A stretch of DNA of 47,404 nucleotides from Pilasporangium apinafurcum (lineage: Eukaryota; Oomycota; Peronosporomycetes; Pythiales; Pythiaceae). Location of the stretch: positions 23,939 through 71,342 of the forward strand of contig BCKE01000096.1 of the NCBI GenBank assembly GCA_001600495.1. The letters are read 5' to 3'. The notes under the pieces were generated by a model. That model was not told the DNA's origin, did no database searches, and was given only the letters and a program-made list of their open reading frames with translations. The position numbers and the translations under genes are program-made. Shown here in pieces: positions 8,711-33,298 of this stretch (position 1 is its first letter; every line of letters begins with the position of its first letter).

Positions 8711-9130
8711 CTAATGGGTTACAGCGACGACATTGGCCAATAACTTCCCTTTTATCGGTAAGGTGAGCGACAAATCATACGTCACATTCTGTCCAGGTAC
8801 TAACGTCACATCAAACTTGCTCAAGATTCCAGCGACGATCAACTTCATCTCCAACATTGCCAGGTTCATTCCCAAACACATCCGTGGTCCACAATTGAAT
8901 GCCACAAACTTGTATGCCGATACGGGAATGATCTTCCCTGTCACTGGATCGATCCATCGTTCGGGTTTAAACTCTTCAGCATCTTGACCCCAGTTTTCTT
9001 TGAGTCGACCCATGGCGTAAAACGGCAATCCTACTGTACTGTTGGCTCGTACAAATGTGCCATCAGACAACACAACGTCGTGATCCACTTCTTTGGTATT
9101 GAAGGGCACTGACGGGTACAATCGCAGTGT
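8711..9130 (-). pseudogene. Cytochrome P450, 3' fragment (CYP86-like), 5' part missing
   Basis: About 140 C-terminal residues are present. They include the end of the K helix (TLRLYPSVP), the PERW region (FKPERW), and a full haem-binding loop [10 protein letters not shown] with its cysteine ligand, followed by the terminal beta strands and a stop at 8711. Homology stops abruptly at about 9130. The glutamate of the K-helix ExxR (expected just before TLR) is replaced by valine, and the sequence beyond is a Fanzor-like fragment read on the opposite strand. The N-terminal two thirds, with the I helix, are absent. Best read as a gene truncated by insertion or rearrangement. An upstream exon lost in the assembly gap is a less likely alternative. 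Confidence 0.75.
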
Positions 9131-9133
9131 CAC

Positions 9134-9340
9134 TACAAGTTCAAGGTGGTATTGAAGCACAAGATGGAAAAGACTGGAGGAAGGATGGTCGAGTGTGAGG
9201 AACACTATACAACAAAAACTTGTTCCCTGTGTGGGAGAATCAGTTAAGCAATGACCCATCAGAAAGCCTTTGACTGTCCGCACTACAAGTTCGTCCTTGA
9301 TAGAGCTGCCGACACTACCAGGAACATATTTCTCAAGAAT
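9134..9340 (+). pseudogene. Decayed Fanzor/TnpB-like C-terminal fragment (Fanzor2-like)
   Basis: The frame from 9134 reads a TnpB-type zinc ribbon: [15 protein letters not shown] (first CxxC), a stop at 9245-9247, then [14 protein letters not shown], followed by [11 protein letters not shown]. In Fanzor2 and TnpB proteins this region is normally E-YTSKTCxxCG ... CPxC ... DRDxNxARNI, the zinc finger followed by the third RuvC motif. Here the second CxxC has lost a cysteine (CPHY), the DRD aspartate is alanine, and a stop interrupts the frame, so it cannot be active. It begins within a few bases of where P450 homology ends on the other strand. It belongs to a different lineage from the Fanzor fragments at 11333-11575 and 32645-32887. 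Confidence 0.7.
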
Positions 9341-9931
9341 GAACACTTATTCATCGGGTCCAGATGTCGGAGCTGGTTACTCCGTGGTTGTCTAGTCTTA
9401 GCTTCTGTTAGTCAAGTCAGACCCAAACAACATAACAGTAGGTCTTTTCTGAGGTATTTCCGTATCTCAAATGATCTCTAAGGTGAGGCGAATCTTGGAG
9501 ATATATGTTGGACAACTCTTTTACTGGTATCGCAGGCTGTAGATGTGCACGATCCAGATGAATCATAATCAGCTCAAAGTGGATGCTACAGTTGACGTTC
9601 CTGCTTTGTCAATGAAAGGACCCATGAGCGAATTGTCTCGATTTGATCAATTACCACAAATGAAATAGATGATAGTTGACTGTCAGTCATCACATGGGTG
9701 AAATAGACTCATGTGAAGCGCTGGTTTAATACGACTACCTAACGCCGCTATGGATAGCAAATCGTCTTGCTACGCTACTTGTATTGTCCTTGAATACCAG
9801 GTCAGGATATGCCATTACTACCGTCTCAAGATTCAGCACGATATTGTGGGTGCCGACACAGCGAGTGCCACGTCACACTGTTGGCAACCAGGGTTCAAAT
9901 CTGAGAGGATTTCTTACTTGGTAGCACTTAG
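9341..9931. other. Sequence between Fanzor2-like relic and TTAA element, unassigned
   Basis: The open frame of the relic continues to 9481 without recognisable motifs. A second short plus-strand frame (9750-9986) is likewise unassigned. The stretch may be the 3' end of the element that carried the Fanzor2-like gene. I found no inverted-repeat terminus. Confidence 0.35.
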
Positions 9932-10026
9932 CCTTTATTCCCCATGTGTTCTGTACCACGCGTGGTACAGAACACATGGGGAATAAAGGCTACACTCATC
10001 CGTTTCCGGAATCATAGCAGTGAAAT
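9932..10026. mobile_element. Truncated end of the TTAA/Fanzor element, cut by the assembly gap
   Basis: It contains the same 58 bp perfect palindrome (9932-9989) and following 37 bp as the complete copies at 11227 and 32539. It stops at the N run. Given the exact duplication, this is probably the same locus as 11227-11321 sequenced in another contig, so it should not be counted as an independent insertion. Confidence 0.8.
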
Positions 10027-10126
10027 NNNNNNNNNNNNNNNNNNNNNNNNNNNNNNNNNNNNNNNNNNNNNNNNNNNNNNNNNNNNNNNNNNNNNNNNNN
10101 NNNNNNNNNNNNNNNNNNNNNNNNNN
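10027..10126. other. Assembly gap, 100 N
   Basis: Exactly 100 undetermined bases, the conventional length for a gap of unknown size. It lies between two copies of the same 1195 bp, so the gap length carries no biological information. Confidence 0.99.
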
Positions 10127-10425
10127 GCGACGATCAACTTCATCTCCAACATTGCCAGGTTCATTCCCAAACACATCCGTGGTCCACAATTGAATGCCAC
10201 AAACTTGTATGCCGATACGGGAATGATCTTCCCTGTCACTGGATCGATCCATCGTTCGGGTTTAAACTCTTCAGCATCTTGACCCCAGTTTTCTTTGAGT
10301 CGACCCATGGCGTAAAACGGCAATCCTACTGTACTGTTGGCTCGTACAAATGTGCCATCAGACAACACAACGTCGTGATCCACTTCTTTGGTATTGAAGG
10401 GCACTGACGGGTACAATCGCAGTGT
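10127..10425 (-). pseudogene. Second copy of the P450 3' fragment, truncated by the gap
   Basis: Repeats the sequence at 8832-9130, including the haem loop [10 protein letters not shown], but its C-terminal end runs into the N gap. Probably the same gene fragment as at 8711-9130, shown twice because of unmerged contig ends. Confidence 0.75.
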
Positions 10426-10428
10426 CAC

Positions 10429-10635
10429 TACAAGTTCAAGGTGGTATTGAAGCACAAGATGGAAAAGACTGGAGGAAGGATGGTCGAGTGTGAGGAACAC
10501 TATACAACAAAAACTTGTTCCCTGTGTGGGAGAATCAGTTAAGCAATGACCCATCAGAAAGCCTTTGACTGTCCGCACTACAAGTTCGTCCTTGATAGAG
10601 CTGCCGACACTACCAGGAACATATTTCTCAAGAAT
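10429..10635 (+). pseudogene. Second copy of the Fanzor2-like relic
   Basis: Same sequence as 9134-9340, with the same in-frame stop and the same lost residues. Probably an assembly duplicate rather than a second gene. Confidence 0.65.
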
Positions 10636-11226
10636 GAACACTTATTCATCGGGTCCAGATGTCGGAGCTGGTTACTCCGTGGTTGTCTAGTCTTAGCTTC
10701 TGTTAGTCAAGTCAGACCCAAACAACATAACAGTAGGTCTTTTCTGAGGTATTTCCGTATCTCAAATGATCTCTAAGGTGAGGCGAATCTTGGAGATATA
10801 TGTTGGACAACTCTTTTACTGGTATCGCAGGCTGTAGATGTGCACGATCCAGATGAATCATAATCAGCTCAAAGTGGATGCTACAGTTGACGTTCCTGCT
10901 TTGTCAATGAAAGGACCCATGAGCGAATTGTCTCGATTTGATCAATTACCACAAATGAAATAGATGATAGTTGACTGTCAGTCATCACATGGGTGAAATA
11001 GACTCATGTGAAGCGCTGGTTTAATACGACTACCTAACGCCGCTATGGATAGCAAATCGTCTTGCTACGCTACTTGTATTGTCCTTGAATACCAGGTCAG
11101 GATATGCCATTACTACCGTCTCAAGATTCAGCACGATATTGTGGGTGCCGACACAGCGAGTGCCACGTCACACTGTTGGCAACCAGGGTTCAAATCTGAG
11201 AGGATTTCTTACTTGGTAGCACTTAG

Positions 11227-11284
11227 CCTTTATTCCCCATGTGTTCTGTACCACGCGTGGTACAGAACACATGGGGAATAAAGG
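11227..11284. repeat. 58 bp perfect palindrome at the element end (copy A)
   Basis: Two 29-base arms meet at a central ACGCGT with no mismatch and no loop spacer. The first bases are CCTTTATTCCCC. It lies 48 bp downstream of the Fanzor stop codon on the minus strand. As RNA it would form a long terminal hairpin. Confidence 0.95.
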
Positions 11285-11332
11285 CTACACTCATCCGTTT
11301 CCGGAATCATAGCAGTGAAATCGTTTATCACC

Positions 11333-11575
11333 TCAGTTTTTGATTTCGAGTACCAATTCATTCTCTTTCCTCGTGAACACCTTGAGTCTCCTCTTTTTCT
11401 TCACTTGGTCCATGAATAGTCTCAAAATGTTGATTGTGGCGTTGATGTCACGGTCCCACAATGTGCGATGGCATTCACTATTTTTGCAGTGTCGCGCACC
11501 ATAAAGATCCTTACCGCCAATTTCTTCGTTGAAGCGGCACTCAATAGATGGACGTGAGGTGATAAATACTTCAAT
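11333..11575 (-). pseudogene. Fanzor1-type (eukaryotic TnpB) C-terminal remnant, copy A
   Basis: An 80-residue open frame begins just after a stop and ends at 11333. It carries the end of a TnpB-type nuclease: VFITSRPSIEC, then ARHCKNSECHRTLWDRD and INATINILRLF. This corresponds to the zinc ribbon followed by the RuvC-III motif (DRDxNAxxNI). The basic tail KKKRRLKVFTRK follows. The first cysteine of the ribbon's first pair appears to be serine (SIEC instead of CxxC), while the second pair (CKNSEC) and the catalytic aspartate motif are kept. The whole N-terminal part and RuvC-I/II are missing, and upstream frames are closed, so no active nuclease can be made. Active Fanzor proteins are RNA-guided DNA endonucleases carried by eukaryotic transposons. 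Confidence 0.8.
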
Positions 11576-11864
11576 TCAATATGCTTCGCTATAGAGAAGC
11601 CGGAAACGATTCATTCAAGAGACACCATCGAAATGAGAAACTCTCAAACTCCTGAGAAGTACCTTGTGGTGTATACTTGATTTTTCTAACTCCATATATC
11701 TTAACCTTTTTCCCCACCCAAGGTGTATAATTTCATTTTTCTGGAAACGCGATTGATCGTCAACATGGTCTTTCAAGATGACTGCGCACACAGCAACAGC
11801 CACCAAGGAGTCTCTCCATCCAATGAATCCTAAAGTCTACTCTCAAGGCAATCTTAGTCTTAAT

Positions 11865-11916
11865 CTTTATTCCCTACATCATTTCTACAACGTGTTGTAC
11901 AAGTGGGGAATAAAAG
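11865..11916. repeat. Imperfect palindrome at the right end of copy A
   Basis: Starts CTTTATTCCC and ends GGGGAATAAAAG, with a central GTTGTAC-type core. The corresponding stretch in copy B is 33177-33228, and the two differ at five positions here. Confidence 0.75.
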
Positions 11917-13119
11917 TTAATTGGTAATTAGACCCACGTTATTATCATTATTAGTATTATAGTTCATTGTCGGTCAGCCAGCATGCTATAGAAACATGTG
12001 TTCATGAAGACCATATATGATATCATGTAGCAGCGTGGCAAGTTCGATAAGAACGGCATTATATTATGCTGACATATGCTTGGACAGCCCGTCACGCACA
12101 TATGTTTTGGCATTTGCGCGACTATTAAACTTTCTGTGATCTTTACAGGATGCAAATAAACCATGTTCATGGAGCAAACCGATGAACCAAGTGGTCACAA
12201 AACCACAGCCACTACTCCACCATATGAACTTAGTATTGGCCCTATGCCTCGCCACTTCAAATCCCATATGTAGCCGCTATTGGTGGTTCTGGACTTTGAA
12301 ACTTTTGCAGTTTGTCTGGCTCATTCATTCTTATCTGCTTCTCTCCACCACTCATACTATCCCTACACAGGCATACTGCAATGAACAAACAAGACATTCT
12401 TACACCTTCTAACGTACACATGTACATGTAATGACGGAGAAACTTGTGTTTGCAGTATCCTCAATGATATAACGTAGACTACTGACACATTAGGTCCACC
12501 CTTGATCGCCTGTTTATTTATTGCCATAATTATTCACATGGATCTAAAAGGGACAAAATATTCCAAAGTAACTATTACATACCAGGGCATCATACATTGC
12601 TTCAAGGACAGCGTCAGTAGACATAACGATTCCATTGTGTTTTCGGTCACTTCTTCCTTTGGGTGGAGAATCTAATAGCGACGACACCGAAGCAAACAAC
12701 CAAACGATCTGACAGTTCTGTAATTCTCTCTTTGTACGTCCGCACTTCGCGACTGGTTCAGTAAAGAATCGCCTCGTCTGCCGAAAACTGCCTTTTTGTG
12801 CTCTGAATTCAACTATCTTGGTTTCACTATAGTCTTGACCCCCGCCACGTAGCAGACGTAAGTAATGAGAAGAGGCGGGTAAGTGAATAGGGCTTTGTTA
12901 CTGTTTTTCACCAATAGAAAATGAGGAATCTATGGAGGGTAGGGTTGAGGTAGTTGATGTAGAGGGAAGGAGGTGGATCAGTTTTGTGCAATGATACGGT
13001 GCGTAAGGGGAGCATTTCTCTTCCTTTTTATACAGCATTATCGTCAATGTGCCACTGAAAAATTTTGTAGCTCCTCACCCCACTCTCTCACTCTCTCTTC
13101 CATTGCCGCGTTGTGTCCG
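11917..13119. other. 1.2 kb intergenic region
   Basis: No gene with a recognisable family is present. Open frames at 11964-12267 (minus) and 12182-12412 (plus) are short. The minus-strand frames are broken by stops and could be a decayed transposase, but I could not establish which. The last few hundred bases before the PX gene are pyrimidine-rich, as expected for a promoter. Confidence 0.4.
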
Positions 13120-29552: not shown

Positions 29553-31355
29553 CTANTATACTGGTCTTGCCCTGTTATACATTTCNTTGCATCGACGTTT
29601 GTTGTGTCCCGTGAGCCCACATTTACCACAATGTTGCGTTTTCGCTGGGTCTCGCTCTAGTGCCAGTGTAGCAGCCTGAGATTCCCGGCGGCGAGGCTTC
29701 TTCGGTCGNCCACGCCGCTTGGCAATAGCGGGCGCTAAACATTCACCTTGCTTGAGGTCGGACTTCAATACAGGTGGGTGAATAGTTGATCCATCGCACA
29801 CACCATAAGCAGCAGTATACGTTTGCGTGCACCAGGTCACATCATGATATTTGTGTAGGTAATTAAGCTGATTTGATTCCCGAAGGCAAATCAATCCATG
29901 ATCACAGGGGGCTCTCATGTCTTCTTCGACACCGCATGCACAAATGGCTCTTGAATTGCTGAAATGAACGGCATATTCAGTGATAATTGAACCAATTGTG
30001 GGAAAACTTTTAACGAGAAATGATACCGGCGAGTACGAAGTCACCTGCATTCGGCAAGCGGTACCCAACACTCGTGCTACACGATCACTGGCTTTCTTCG
30101 TCAATTGTCCCCATGATGAGCTTTTCGAAAGACTCTGTGCCCACTTTTCGCCAACATAGCGCTCTATCCCCATCAAACAATCAAGAATAGGTAGTTTTCT
30201 GATACTTCGCAGCCTATTGTTGATTGATTCCACGTTGTTAGAAGTCAGCATTCCGTACCGTGGACAAGGACTGAAATAGAGTGACCACTTCTCTTCACCG
30301 ATGTCCATCAGCCACTTCAGTGCACCAGGGTTCATACCCCTTAGGAGTTCCGCTTGATGTTCAAATGAACCCTTAGACATTGAACGGGCAAGTGCCCACG
30401 CTGCATTCTTGAGTTCCTTGGATCTAAATTTCTTGTTAAAATTTTCCATAAGATGCCGGAAGCAAAAGAAGTGATAATGAACTGCGTCAATCTTGGCTGC
30501 GGCCGGCACTAATCCTTTGTCACGATCAGATATTATAAACGCTGGTTTATTATCGAGGTTACTCAGCAAAAAGTTCAAAAAGTACGACCAATTATCTTCA
30601 TTTTCGATAGCCACCACCGCAATTCCCACAATTTGAATTTCTCCGTTTCCGTTACGAAAGCAGGCCGCGAGAAGTACTCCTCCGGGTGATGTCTTCAAAA
30701 AGGTGCCATCTACGTTTAAGCCACGATCTGCGTACTGAGAAAATGATTTTGATCCTTCTCGATAAACGATACACAAACGTTTAAAAACACCACTTGACGT
30801 TTCGAGAGTTCCAGCGTGGCCAAATTGTTTCATTGCTTCGATATAGGACGGGAGAAATGCGAATTGAGCGATGTCATCCTTAAATAATTCAGATCTCAAT
30901 CTCTTACACGCGGTCACACAGTTTATATAAGATGCAGAATGCCCCAACTTTGCCACCGTCCGTTGAATGATGACTGGAGAAACATCTCGCCCATGCTGAA
31001 CAAAAAGCTCTCGGATAGACTCGTTCTGTGCTAGCTGCTTCCCTGTCCACTTTCTGTTAAATGAGTGGGATTGTGTATCGACAGTTTCAATCGGACATGT
31101 ATGCTTCAGGAACTTGGAGGGTTTCTTGAATTCCGTTTTGAAGGCAAACTGAACTACAAATTCACATTGTAAGGTCACACAAACGACTTTGTATCGTCGC
31201 TTGTCGCTTACTACGACCTTATAAGCCCTGTGGACAGATTCATGATAGGCTAGGACAGCATTGACGATATCCGCTTTGCTCGTGTACACTTGGTGATCAA
31301 AGAACTCGTTGCTTGACTCATAGGATGGTATTGGAGACAGACTGTGTGAAGACAT
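29553..31355 (-). CDS. MULE transposase (DDE, SWIM and CCHC zinc fingers)
   Basis: The frame runs from ATG at 31355 to TAG at 29553, 600 codons, with three codons holding an N. A FLYWCH/FAR1-like DNA-binding N-terminus is followed by the MULE DDE core. First acidic residue: GLNVDGTFLK near residue 216. Second: AFIISDRDKGL near 272. Then the FCFRHLMENF box (CxxH), and the third in SNNVESINNRL near 378. A SWIM zinc finger (CACGVEEDMRAPCDHG) and a C-terminal CCHC knuckle (CGKCGLTGHNKRRC) complete the protein. All catalytic and zinc-binding residues are present, so the enzyme could be functional if the ambiguous bases do not hide stops. The flanks within the element (29129-29552 and 31356-32375) show no other gene. 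Confidence 0.92.
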   Translation of the reverse strand: MSSHSLSPIPSYESSNEFFDHQVYTSKADIVNAVLAYHESVHRAYKVVVSDKRRYKVVCVTLQCEFVVQFAFKTEFKKPSKFLKHTCPIETVDTQSHSFNRKWTGKQLAQNESIRELFVQHGRDVSPVIIQRTVAKLGHSASYINCVTACKRLRSELFKDDIAQFAFLPSYIEAMKQFGHAGTLETSSGVFKRLCIVYREGSKSFSQYADRGLNVDGTFLKTSPGGVLLAACFRNGNGEIQIVGIAVVAIENEDNWSYFLNFLLSNLDNKPAFIISDRDKGLVPAAAKIDAVHYHFFCFRHLMENFNKKFRSKELKNAAWALARSMSKGSFEHQAELLRGMNPGALKWLMDIGEEKWSLYFSPCPRYGMLTSNNVESINNRLRSIRKLPILDCLMGIERYVGEKWAQSLSKSSSWGQLTKKASDRVARVLGTACRMQVTSYSPVSFLVKSFPTIGSIITEYAVHFSNSRAICACGVEEDMRAPCDHGLICLRESNQLNYLHKYHDVTWCTQTYTAAYGVCDGSTIHPPVLKSDLKQGECLAPAIAKRRXRPKKPRRRESQAATLALERDPAKTQHCGKCGLTGHNKRRCXEMYNRARPVX

Positions 31356-32479: not shown

Positions 32480-32538
32480 ACAATATTTTAAATATGGAAT
32501 AGTATTGTAATCAACGTGCAACTTCAACATTGACTTAA

Positions 32539-32596
32539 CCTTTATTCCCCATGTGTTCTGTACCACGCGTGGTACAGAACACATGGGGAATAAAGG
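32539..32596. repeat. 58 bp perfect palindrome at the element end (copy B)
   Basis: Identical to 11227-11284. Two 29-base arms around ACGCGT. It would form the last structured part of a transcript running through the Fanzor remnant on the minus strand. Confidence 0.95.
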
Positions 32597-32644
32597 CTAC
32601 ACTCATCCGTTTCCGGAATCATAGCAGTGAAATCGTTTATCACC

Positions 32645-32887
32645 TCAGTTTTTGATTTCGAGTACCAATTCATTCTCTTTCCTCGTGAACACCTTGAGTC
32701 TCCTCTTTTTCTTCACTTGGTCCATGAATAGTCTCAAAATGTTGATTGTGGCGTTGATGTCACGGTCCCACAATGTGCGATGGCATTCACTATTTTTGCA
32801 GTGTCGCGCACCATAAAGATCCTTACCGCCAATTTCTTCGTTGAAGCGGCACTCAATAGATGGACGTGAGGTGATAAATACTTCAAT
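32645..32887 (-). pseudogene. Fanzor1-type C-terminal remnant, copy B
   Basis: The 80-codon frame is identical in nucleotide sequence to 11333-11575 and keeps the CKNSEC half of the zinc ribbon and the WDRDINATINI RuvC-III motif. The N-terminal catalytic parts are absent, so it is a relic as a protein. Because both copies are identical over the frame, the absence of substitutions cannot by itself distinguish selection on protein from selection on RNA or recent spread. Confidence 0.8.
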
Positions 32888-33298
32888 TCAATATGCTTCG
32901 CTATAGAGAAGCCGGAAACGATTCATTCAAGAGACACCATCGAAATGAGAAACTCTCAAACTCCTGAGAAGTACCTTGTGGTGTATACTTGATTTTTCTA
33001 ACTCCATATATCTTAACCTTTTTTCCCATCCAAGATGTATCATCTAATTTTTCTGGAAACGCGATTGATCGTCAACATGGCCTTTTAAGATAATTGCGCA
33101 CACAGCAAGAGCCACGAAGGAGTCTCTCCATACAATGAATCCTAAAGTCCACTCTCAAGGCAATCTTAGTTTTAATCTTTATTCCCCACATCATTTGTAC
33201 AGCGCGTCGTACAAGTGGGGAATAAAAGTTAAAAGTCGCAGATTTAGTCAAAAATAGCTCTTCTTTGACGCGCTTAGGACTGACGAAGAAGCATAACC

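Follow-up and report, generated by a model that had tools for sequence, protein, structure and literature searches.

Transposons of the piggyBac type mostly duplicate a TTAA target, and their miniature derivatives (MITEs) are moved in trans. Duplications of the sequence TTAN, combined with 13-bp terminal inverted repeats (TIRs), have been described for five Fanzor1 families of insect viruses, whose superfamily is given as unknown by Bao and Jurka (2013, PMC3627910). Apart from this report and PMC10711439, the titles and first lines of abstracts that we went through named neither a Fanzor on a piggyBac/TTAA element nor a Fanzor MITE, and the mentions of Fanzor in PMC12324416 and PMC12292965 are unrelated. 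Here we describe 690-bp units from Pilasporangium apinafurcum, which are very probably MITE-like internal-deletion derivatives of a ~2.5 kb Fanzor1 transposon, multiplied by a transposase acting in trans and carrying the tail of the Fanzor gene as a passenger.

The window, i.e. the whole stretch of DNA that was analyzed (47,404 nt), contains two copies of the element, both with the Fanzor sense on the minus strand:

11227..11916, minus strand: copy A of the 690-bp element
11223..11226, no strand: left flank of copy A, TTAG; 3' target copy, reading CTAA in the Fanzor sense
11917..11920, no strand: right flank of copy A, TTAA; 5' target copy in the Fanzor sense
32539..33228, minus strand: copy B of the 690-bp element
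32535..32538, no strand: left flank of copy B, TTAA
33229..33232, no strand: right flank of copy B, TTAA

The preliminary description had reported two 690-bp copies at these positions with the inverted termini CCTTTATTCCCC / GGGGAATAAAAG and the flanks TTAG..TTAA (copy A) and TTAA..TTAA (copy B); coordinates, lengths and letters all agree with our reading. Its term "two-copy", however, is correct inside the window but not genome-wide, where 20 copies of the 690-bp class were read, 13 of them with both ends. The sequence TTAACCTTTATTCCCC occurs 505 times (251 + 254) in the genome when at most one mismatch is allowed, the reversed-letter control giving 0 matches. Copies A and B, both exactly 690 bp long, have 670 of 690 positions in common. 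Every one of the 20 mismatches falls within positions 486-690 and none within 1-485; that is, the stretches 11227-11711 and 32539-33023 are identical and the remaining 205 positions hold the 20 differences. Since this one-sided clustering is improbable by chance (p = 1.5e-11 under random spread), gene conversion of one copy by the other, 21 kb apart, has probably taken place. Upstream of copy A, a gap of 100 N at 10027-10126 (within 8832-11321) separates two identical stretches of 1195 bp, 8832-10026 and 10127-11321, which are probably un-merged contig ends. A third, partial terminus at 9932-10026 was discarded, as it would then be copy A again, present in this assembly duplicate. Near copy B, a MULE transposase domain lies in a frame of 600 aa (29556-31355).

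We searched the genome (36.5 Mb, 136 contigs) with copy A as query and scored 40 of 400 candidates. The loci fetched (given below as L numbers) yielded 40 copies, of which 20 are short, 7 measure 1.6 kb, 11 measure ~2.5 kb and 2 belong to none of these classes, a mix that is biased towards the short form because the query is the short form. Longer Fanzor-coding relatives, for which the preliminary description had proposed a search, do exist: the ~2.5 kb forms, present in the same genome, code for Fanzor1, and each short copy is this element reduced to its two ends (sense 1-389 and 388-690). In copy A these ends are:

11528..11916, minus strand: 5' deletion arm, upstream part of the parent element (sense 1-389)
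11227..11529, minus strand: 3' deletion arm, comprising the end of the Fanzor gene, the 3' UTR and the terminal palindrome (sense 388-690)

At the joint of copy A, the alignment assigns 2 nt to both arms. When compared in the Fanzor sense with the 2.5 kb copy L033, the first part of the short copies matches to position 398 or 399, and the second part starts at position 2170 (14/20), 2176 (2/20) or 2192 (4/20). The 1.6 kb class carries a deletion that differs from that of the short class, and relatives of 2.5, 1.6 and 1.1 kb have the same ends as the 690-bp copies, which they match in two arms. The earlier view that "just" the Fanzor tail region is kept has to be given up, as 389 bp of the 5' end are retained too; a kept tail is the outcome to be expected of an internal deletion.

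An independent size count was obtained by two pattern searches, which gave 213 tail sites and 138 5'-side sites, 100 of each being listed. Among the sites listed, 48 pairs of tail and 5' side were formed: the short class accounts for 9 of them, the 1.6 kb class for 18 and the 2.5 kb class for 17, while 3 are of intermediate size and a single pair is longer. This longer pair is a tandem duplication, and the idea of longer members carrying a transposase was dropped for this reason. Genome-wide, the tail pattern is commoner than the 5'-side pattern (213 versus 138 sites); this excess could be read as preferential keeping of the tail, although the tail 30-mer is coding and may match related families too. 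On a tree of the 40 copies, the short class accounts for 2 label changes (shuffled mean 12.9; 0/500 as low), and the 2.5 kb copy L032 groups with it; by this measure the 690-bp class appears to be nearly one clade. The tree has low support and is star-like, the shape that would be expected after a burst. Further properties of the deleted form are those of a MITE: its ends are common to a longer coding element whose interior is missing, it has TIRs and a target duplication, and it is present in multiple copies, with one empty site.

The 80-codon Fanzor tail frame that had been noticed on the minus strand was found in both copies:

11336..11575, minus strand: 80-codon open frame of copy A, then a stop; the last ~64 codons are the Fanzor1 C-terminus
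32648..32887, minus strand: 80-codon frame of copy B, identical to that of copy A

When taken alone, this frame matches PF07282 weakly (16.5 bits, E 0.0096; cut-off 26.3) and has no credible PDB match. The profile check that had been proposed for it thus stays below the cut-off for the frame itself, but is positive for the long relatives: a piece of L022 (139 aa) matches PF07282 with E 5.5e-9 and a piece of L034 (427 aa) matches SpuFz1 (8gkh) with E 1.4e-6, identifying the product of the parent family as a Fanzor1-type protein with RuvC domain and zinc ribbon. Because of these matches, the long relatives settle, at the level of sequence similarity, the Fanzor1 origin of the 80-codon tail. A zinc ribbon and the RuvC-III signature had both been ascribed to the frame. 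Of the ribbon, the first cysteine pair is deleted and the second remains; of the catalytic residues, the RuvC-III Asp alone is kept, and the 690-bp copy is devoid of a complete Fanzor1 catalytic set.

Changes in the tail of the short copies were amino-acid-changing in 100 and silent in 50 cases, where the 5' side predicts 97.9 : 47.3; the longer classes gave 122 : 56, with 85.9 : 42.7 expected. Judging from these ratios, the tail of inserted short copies is changing at the neutral rate, with no sign of maintenance, which says little about the source copies at the time when the family was active. A protein function of the 80-codon frame was rejected, as the tail is neutral and the first in-frame Met of L022 lies 53 codons into the Fanzor frame (by eye); this Met falls beyond the kept 5' arm.

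The longest frame among the 11 long copies measures 427 aa. We considered a family Fanzor intact if a piece was located in a stop-free frame of at least 600 aa, the full stop-to-stop frame of the family being estimated at ~670 codons. Among the 118 protein pieces scored (111 of 326 candidates scored), none represented an intact Fanzor of the family of the 690-bp element, in an assembly that may be incomplete. The frames around those of the 118 pieces that lack an internal stop do not exceed 555 aa, and the copy with the 555-aa frame is interrupted by a stop in its other piece. Other Fanzor families of the genome, at places outside the 118 pieces, have stop-free frames of 626-797 aa. As an aside, the genome is rich in Fanzor genes: 150 of 852 candidate matches to PF07282 were scored, several of them in these 626-797 aa frames. 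An older second Fanzor family is represented by L028:3429-3930, L018:224-734, L017 and L010 and, in the window, by 9131-9328 and 10426-10623. Its members L018 and L028 are ~72% alike, its start TTAACC is similar to that of the 690-bp family, and its deletion derivatives keep tails of differing lengths (by eye).

The target was analyzed in the Fanzor sense. The 5' flank reads TTAN in 32 of 34 readable copies, the exceptions being TCAA and ATTT, and the 3' flank reads YTAN in all 30 readable copies. The first base of the 5' target copy is T in 33/34 cases, although next to the 3' end (e.g. 11223-11226) C was found in 14/30 and T in 16/30 copies. At the fourth base of the 5' flank, A was found 72, G 12, T 8 and C 5 times genome-wide (97 ends listed with letters out of 109). 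Where the fourth base is not A, both sides agree in 4/5 copies according to a script and in L035 by eye; L005 is the copy that disagrees. Hence, the TTAA target assumed previously recurs as a type of flank, but 25 of the 97 listed ends have another fourth base, and the target rule in the Fanzor sense is TTAN rather than strict TTAA. The 3' C/T junction base was also considered as a heritable feature, which was discarded since nearest copies share it in 14/30 cases (shuffled mean 14.6).

Empty sites, the tabulation of which had been suggested as well, were looked for by joining the flanks of the copies. The short copy L010 sits in a repeat of the older Fanzor-related family, and L018 and L017 represent the uninserted repeat with a single TTAA each, bridging the flanks of L010 without a gap at the joint. 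At the same site L028 reads CTAA, and in L022 the site falls within a deletion. Among the loci fetched, the other 38 joined flank pairs were not bridged (39 pairs tested from 40 copies, 1/39 bridged).

Both ends of the element are palindromic; the palindrome at the left end had escaped the preliminary description:

11227..11284, no strand: perfect 58-bp terminal palindrome of copy A, 3' end in the Fanzor sense
32539..32596, no strand: perfect 58-bp terminal palindrome of copy B
11862..11916, no strand: imperfect terminal palindrome at the other end of copy A, 5' end in the Fanzor sense; inner limit by eye
33174..33228, no strand: imperfect terminal palindrome at the other end of copy B; inner limit by eye

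Of 27 left ends starting with CCTTTA, 8 are perfect palindromes, with 6 distinct sequences among them; in two of these palindromes, each arm is shorter by one base at the matching position. The imperfect ones have 1 to 16 arm mismatches. Perfect left palindromes were seen at 11227-11284 and 32539-32596 and in L004, L007, L018, L021, L024 and L039. As read from these copies, the arms of the left palindrome are changing together, indels included. Independent mutation would not produce matching changes in both arms, and arm-to-arm copying would be the simplest account; quasi-palindrome correction is an example of such copying. Therefore, pairing in the terminal hairpin is unusable as evidence for an RNA function. 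In L020 the imperfect right-end palindrome has an inverted centre, and in L018 it is symmetrical, which looks flip-flop-like by eye. Rfam returned 7 matches, all below gathering scores, with the best one (MIR537, E 0.0022) on the palindrome.

An alternative explanation for the kept tail is that the 690-bp element donates guide RNAs: the nuclease gene would have been lost, the upstream region would have been retained along with the omega/re-RNA-producing 3' end, each insertion would take its guide from the 3' flank, and a Fanzor acting in trans would re-cut the empty site of the element, thereby restoring it. We regard this as unlikely. Upstream arm and 3' arm are indeed both retained, but an internal deletion retains the 3' region anyway, and the derivatives of the older Fanzor family differ in the tail length that they keep. 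According to PMC10711439, Fanzor1 re-RNAs run on for ~15 nt beyond the duplication, and their scaffold is predicted to include both TIR and duplication; here, the 58-bp hairpin directly precedes the duplication. The 5' duplication TTAN moreover resembles the TAM of GtFz1, which is TTAAN (PMC10432273). Pairing amounts to 95.5% in two small hairpins located at the stop codon and behind it, as compared with 27-49% when they are slid, yet the hairpins are barely above chance, with shuffles reaching the percentage paired in 33/500, the covariation score in 19/500 and the both-sided changes in 45/500 cases. Majority letters of short and longer classes differ at 0/48 positions of the 3' UTR and at 7/389 positions of the 5' side, numbers too small to tell, and a lower diversity of the 3' UTR (0.047 versus 0.070 on the 5' side) was confined to the 1.6 kb class (7 copies). 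Against this stands the absence of excess conservation in the short copies, in which pi on the 5' side (0.071) is no higher than in the tail (0.075) or in the 3' UTR (0.092), the terminal palindrome being their most diverse part (pi 0.157; all diversity figures refer to matched stretches of at least 150 bp). A guide-RNA scaffold conserved above background is thus not apparent in the short copies, covariation is weak and coding constraint on the tail is missing. The stop-free frames of other Fanzor families speak in favor of an available nuclease; the family's own, among the 118 pieces mentioned, are not intact. A guide-donor role of the 690-bp element is accordingly possible but unsupported by the sequences. 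A shade less probable still is the version in which the units of the active era were guide-only Fanzor parasites, with a TAM-like TTAN upstream, a new guide downstream and the nuclease of a 2.5 kb relative restoring excised copies. If this were true, the one-sided TTAN, with N beside the Fanzor 5' end, would be the footprint of the nuclease's TAM and not of the transposase.

The enzyme that moved the family would have to be sought outside of it. No transposase domain was detected in three frames of L022, and none was seen in the 2.5 kb relatives; therefore, we infer movement in trans, and the whole family seems to depend on a transposase encoded elsewhere. The 690-bp element cannot move itself, and the earlier designation "non-autonomous" is borne out and would seem to apply to the 2.5 kb relatives seen as well. 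Three piggyBac matches are present in the genome, the best one (PF13843, 145 bits) being a gene at C5:658288:

L029:2198-4760: piggyBac gene, single DNA-level copy among the candidates scored, with internal stop and a unique downstream palindrome

That the chassis is a true piggyBac element, and that this gene or a relative moved the family, is a reading we entertain tentatively, with somewhat more doubt than confidence. Apart from the profile match, it is favored by a TTAA-flanked palindrome of 61 bp located ~370 bp past the stop codon, which scores 55 against the left end of a Fanzor element (maximum of 50 shuffles, 30); with 124 such palindromes (at most 3 mismatches) in 36.5 Mb, the chance of finding one within ~400 bp of the gene is ~1%. 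However, no matching palindrome exists upstream of the gene, no second DNA-level copy was found of the gene (40 of 87 candidates scored) or of the downstream palindrome, an in-frame stop separates its 163- and 540-aa parts, and the target of the family is an oriented TTAN instead of the palindromic TTAA. The "piggyBac-like TTAA chassis" of the preliminary description is hence plausible with regard to the gene and its downstream palindrome, and the TTAN target and the missing upstream palindrome speak against it; the one-sided palindrome is a lead only. Another DDE superfamily, e.g. PIF/Harbinger, which makes 3-bp duplications, appears improbable as the source, more so than any reading above. 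The duplication can be read as 3 bp (TAN), in which case the base preceding the 3' TAN (T or C, as compared with T at the 5' side in 33/34) would belong to the element, and six DDE_Tnp_4 (Harbinger-type) matches are present in the genome. Yet 0/6 of these lie within 20 kb of the termini listed, which are part of all sites, and the empty site fits a 4-bp TTAA duplication, though this single TTAA case is compatible with 3 bp too.

Whichever enzyme was involved, we favor internal deletion followed by amplification of a MITE-like passenger-bearing unit. An internal deletion brought the 5' end (~389 bp) and the 3' end (~302 bp) together, and the shortened form multiplied, probably through a transposase that recognizes the common ends in trans and inserts at TTAN. 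The deletion, the common ends, the target duplication, the amplification of the deleted form and one empty site are seen in the sequences themselves. The Fanzor tail is the 3' deletion arm, probably carried along as a passenger. Once inserted, the copies change neutrally, and the family Fanzor genes read so far are broken.

Nuclease-coding, 1.6 kb and nuclease-less 690-bp forms with the same ends thus occur in one eukaryotic family, and therefore the use of a nuclease in trans by the MITE of an RNA-guided transposon becomes testable. The likeness to piggyBac elements and their MITEs consists in a duplication that is mostly TTAA and in the probable movement of MITEs in trans; the difference is the TTAN target with its orientation bias. 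The CRe-1/2/3 loci with internal deletions and TE-N2_CMe (PMC3627910) likewise represent amplified deleted or partial Fanzor derivatives, but they are Helitron-associated or devoid of TIRs, whereas the present unit is a TIR element composed of a 5' arm and a Fanzor 3' tail. Closest are the Fanzor1 elements of insect viruses (PMC3627910; SfAV element, PMC10711439), which share with the present family a TTAN duplication, short TIRs, an unassigned superfamily and no known transposase. In contrast to these, the family described here resides in a cellular genome, is much more numerous (two copies are given for the SfAV element), ends in long palindromes and is rich in internally deleted forms, and it extends the TTAN rule, printed for the insect-virus Fanzor1 elements, to a cellular family of high copy number.
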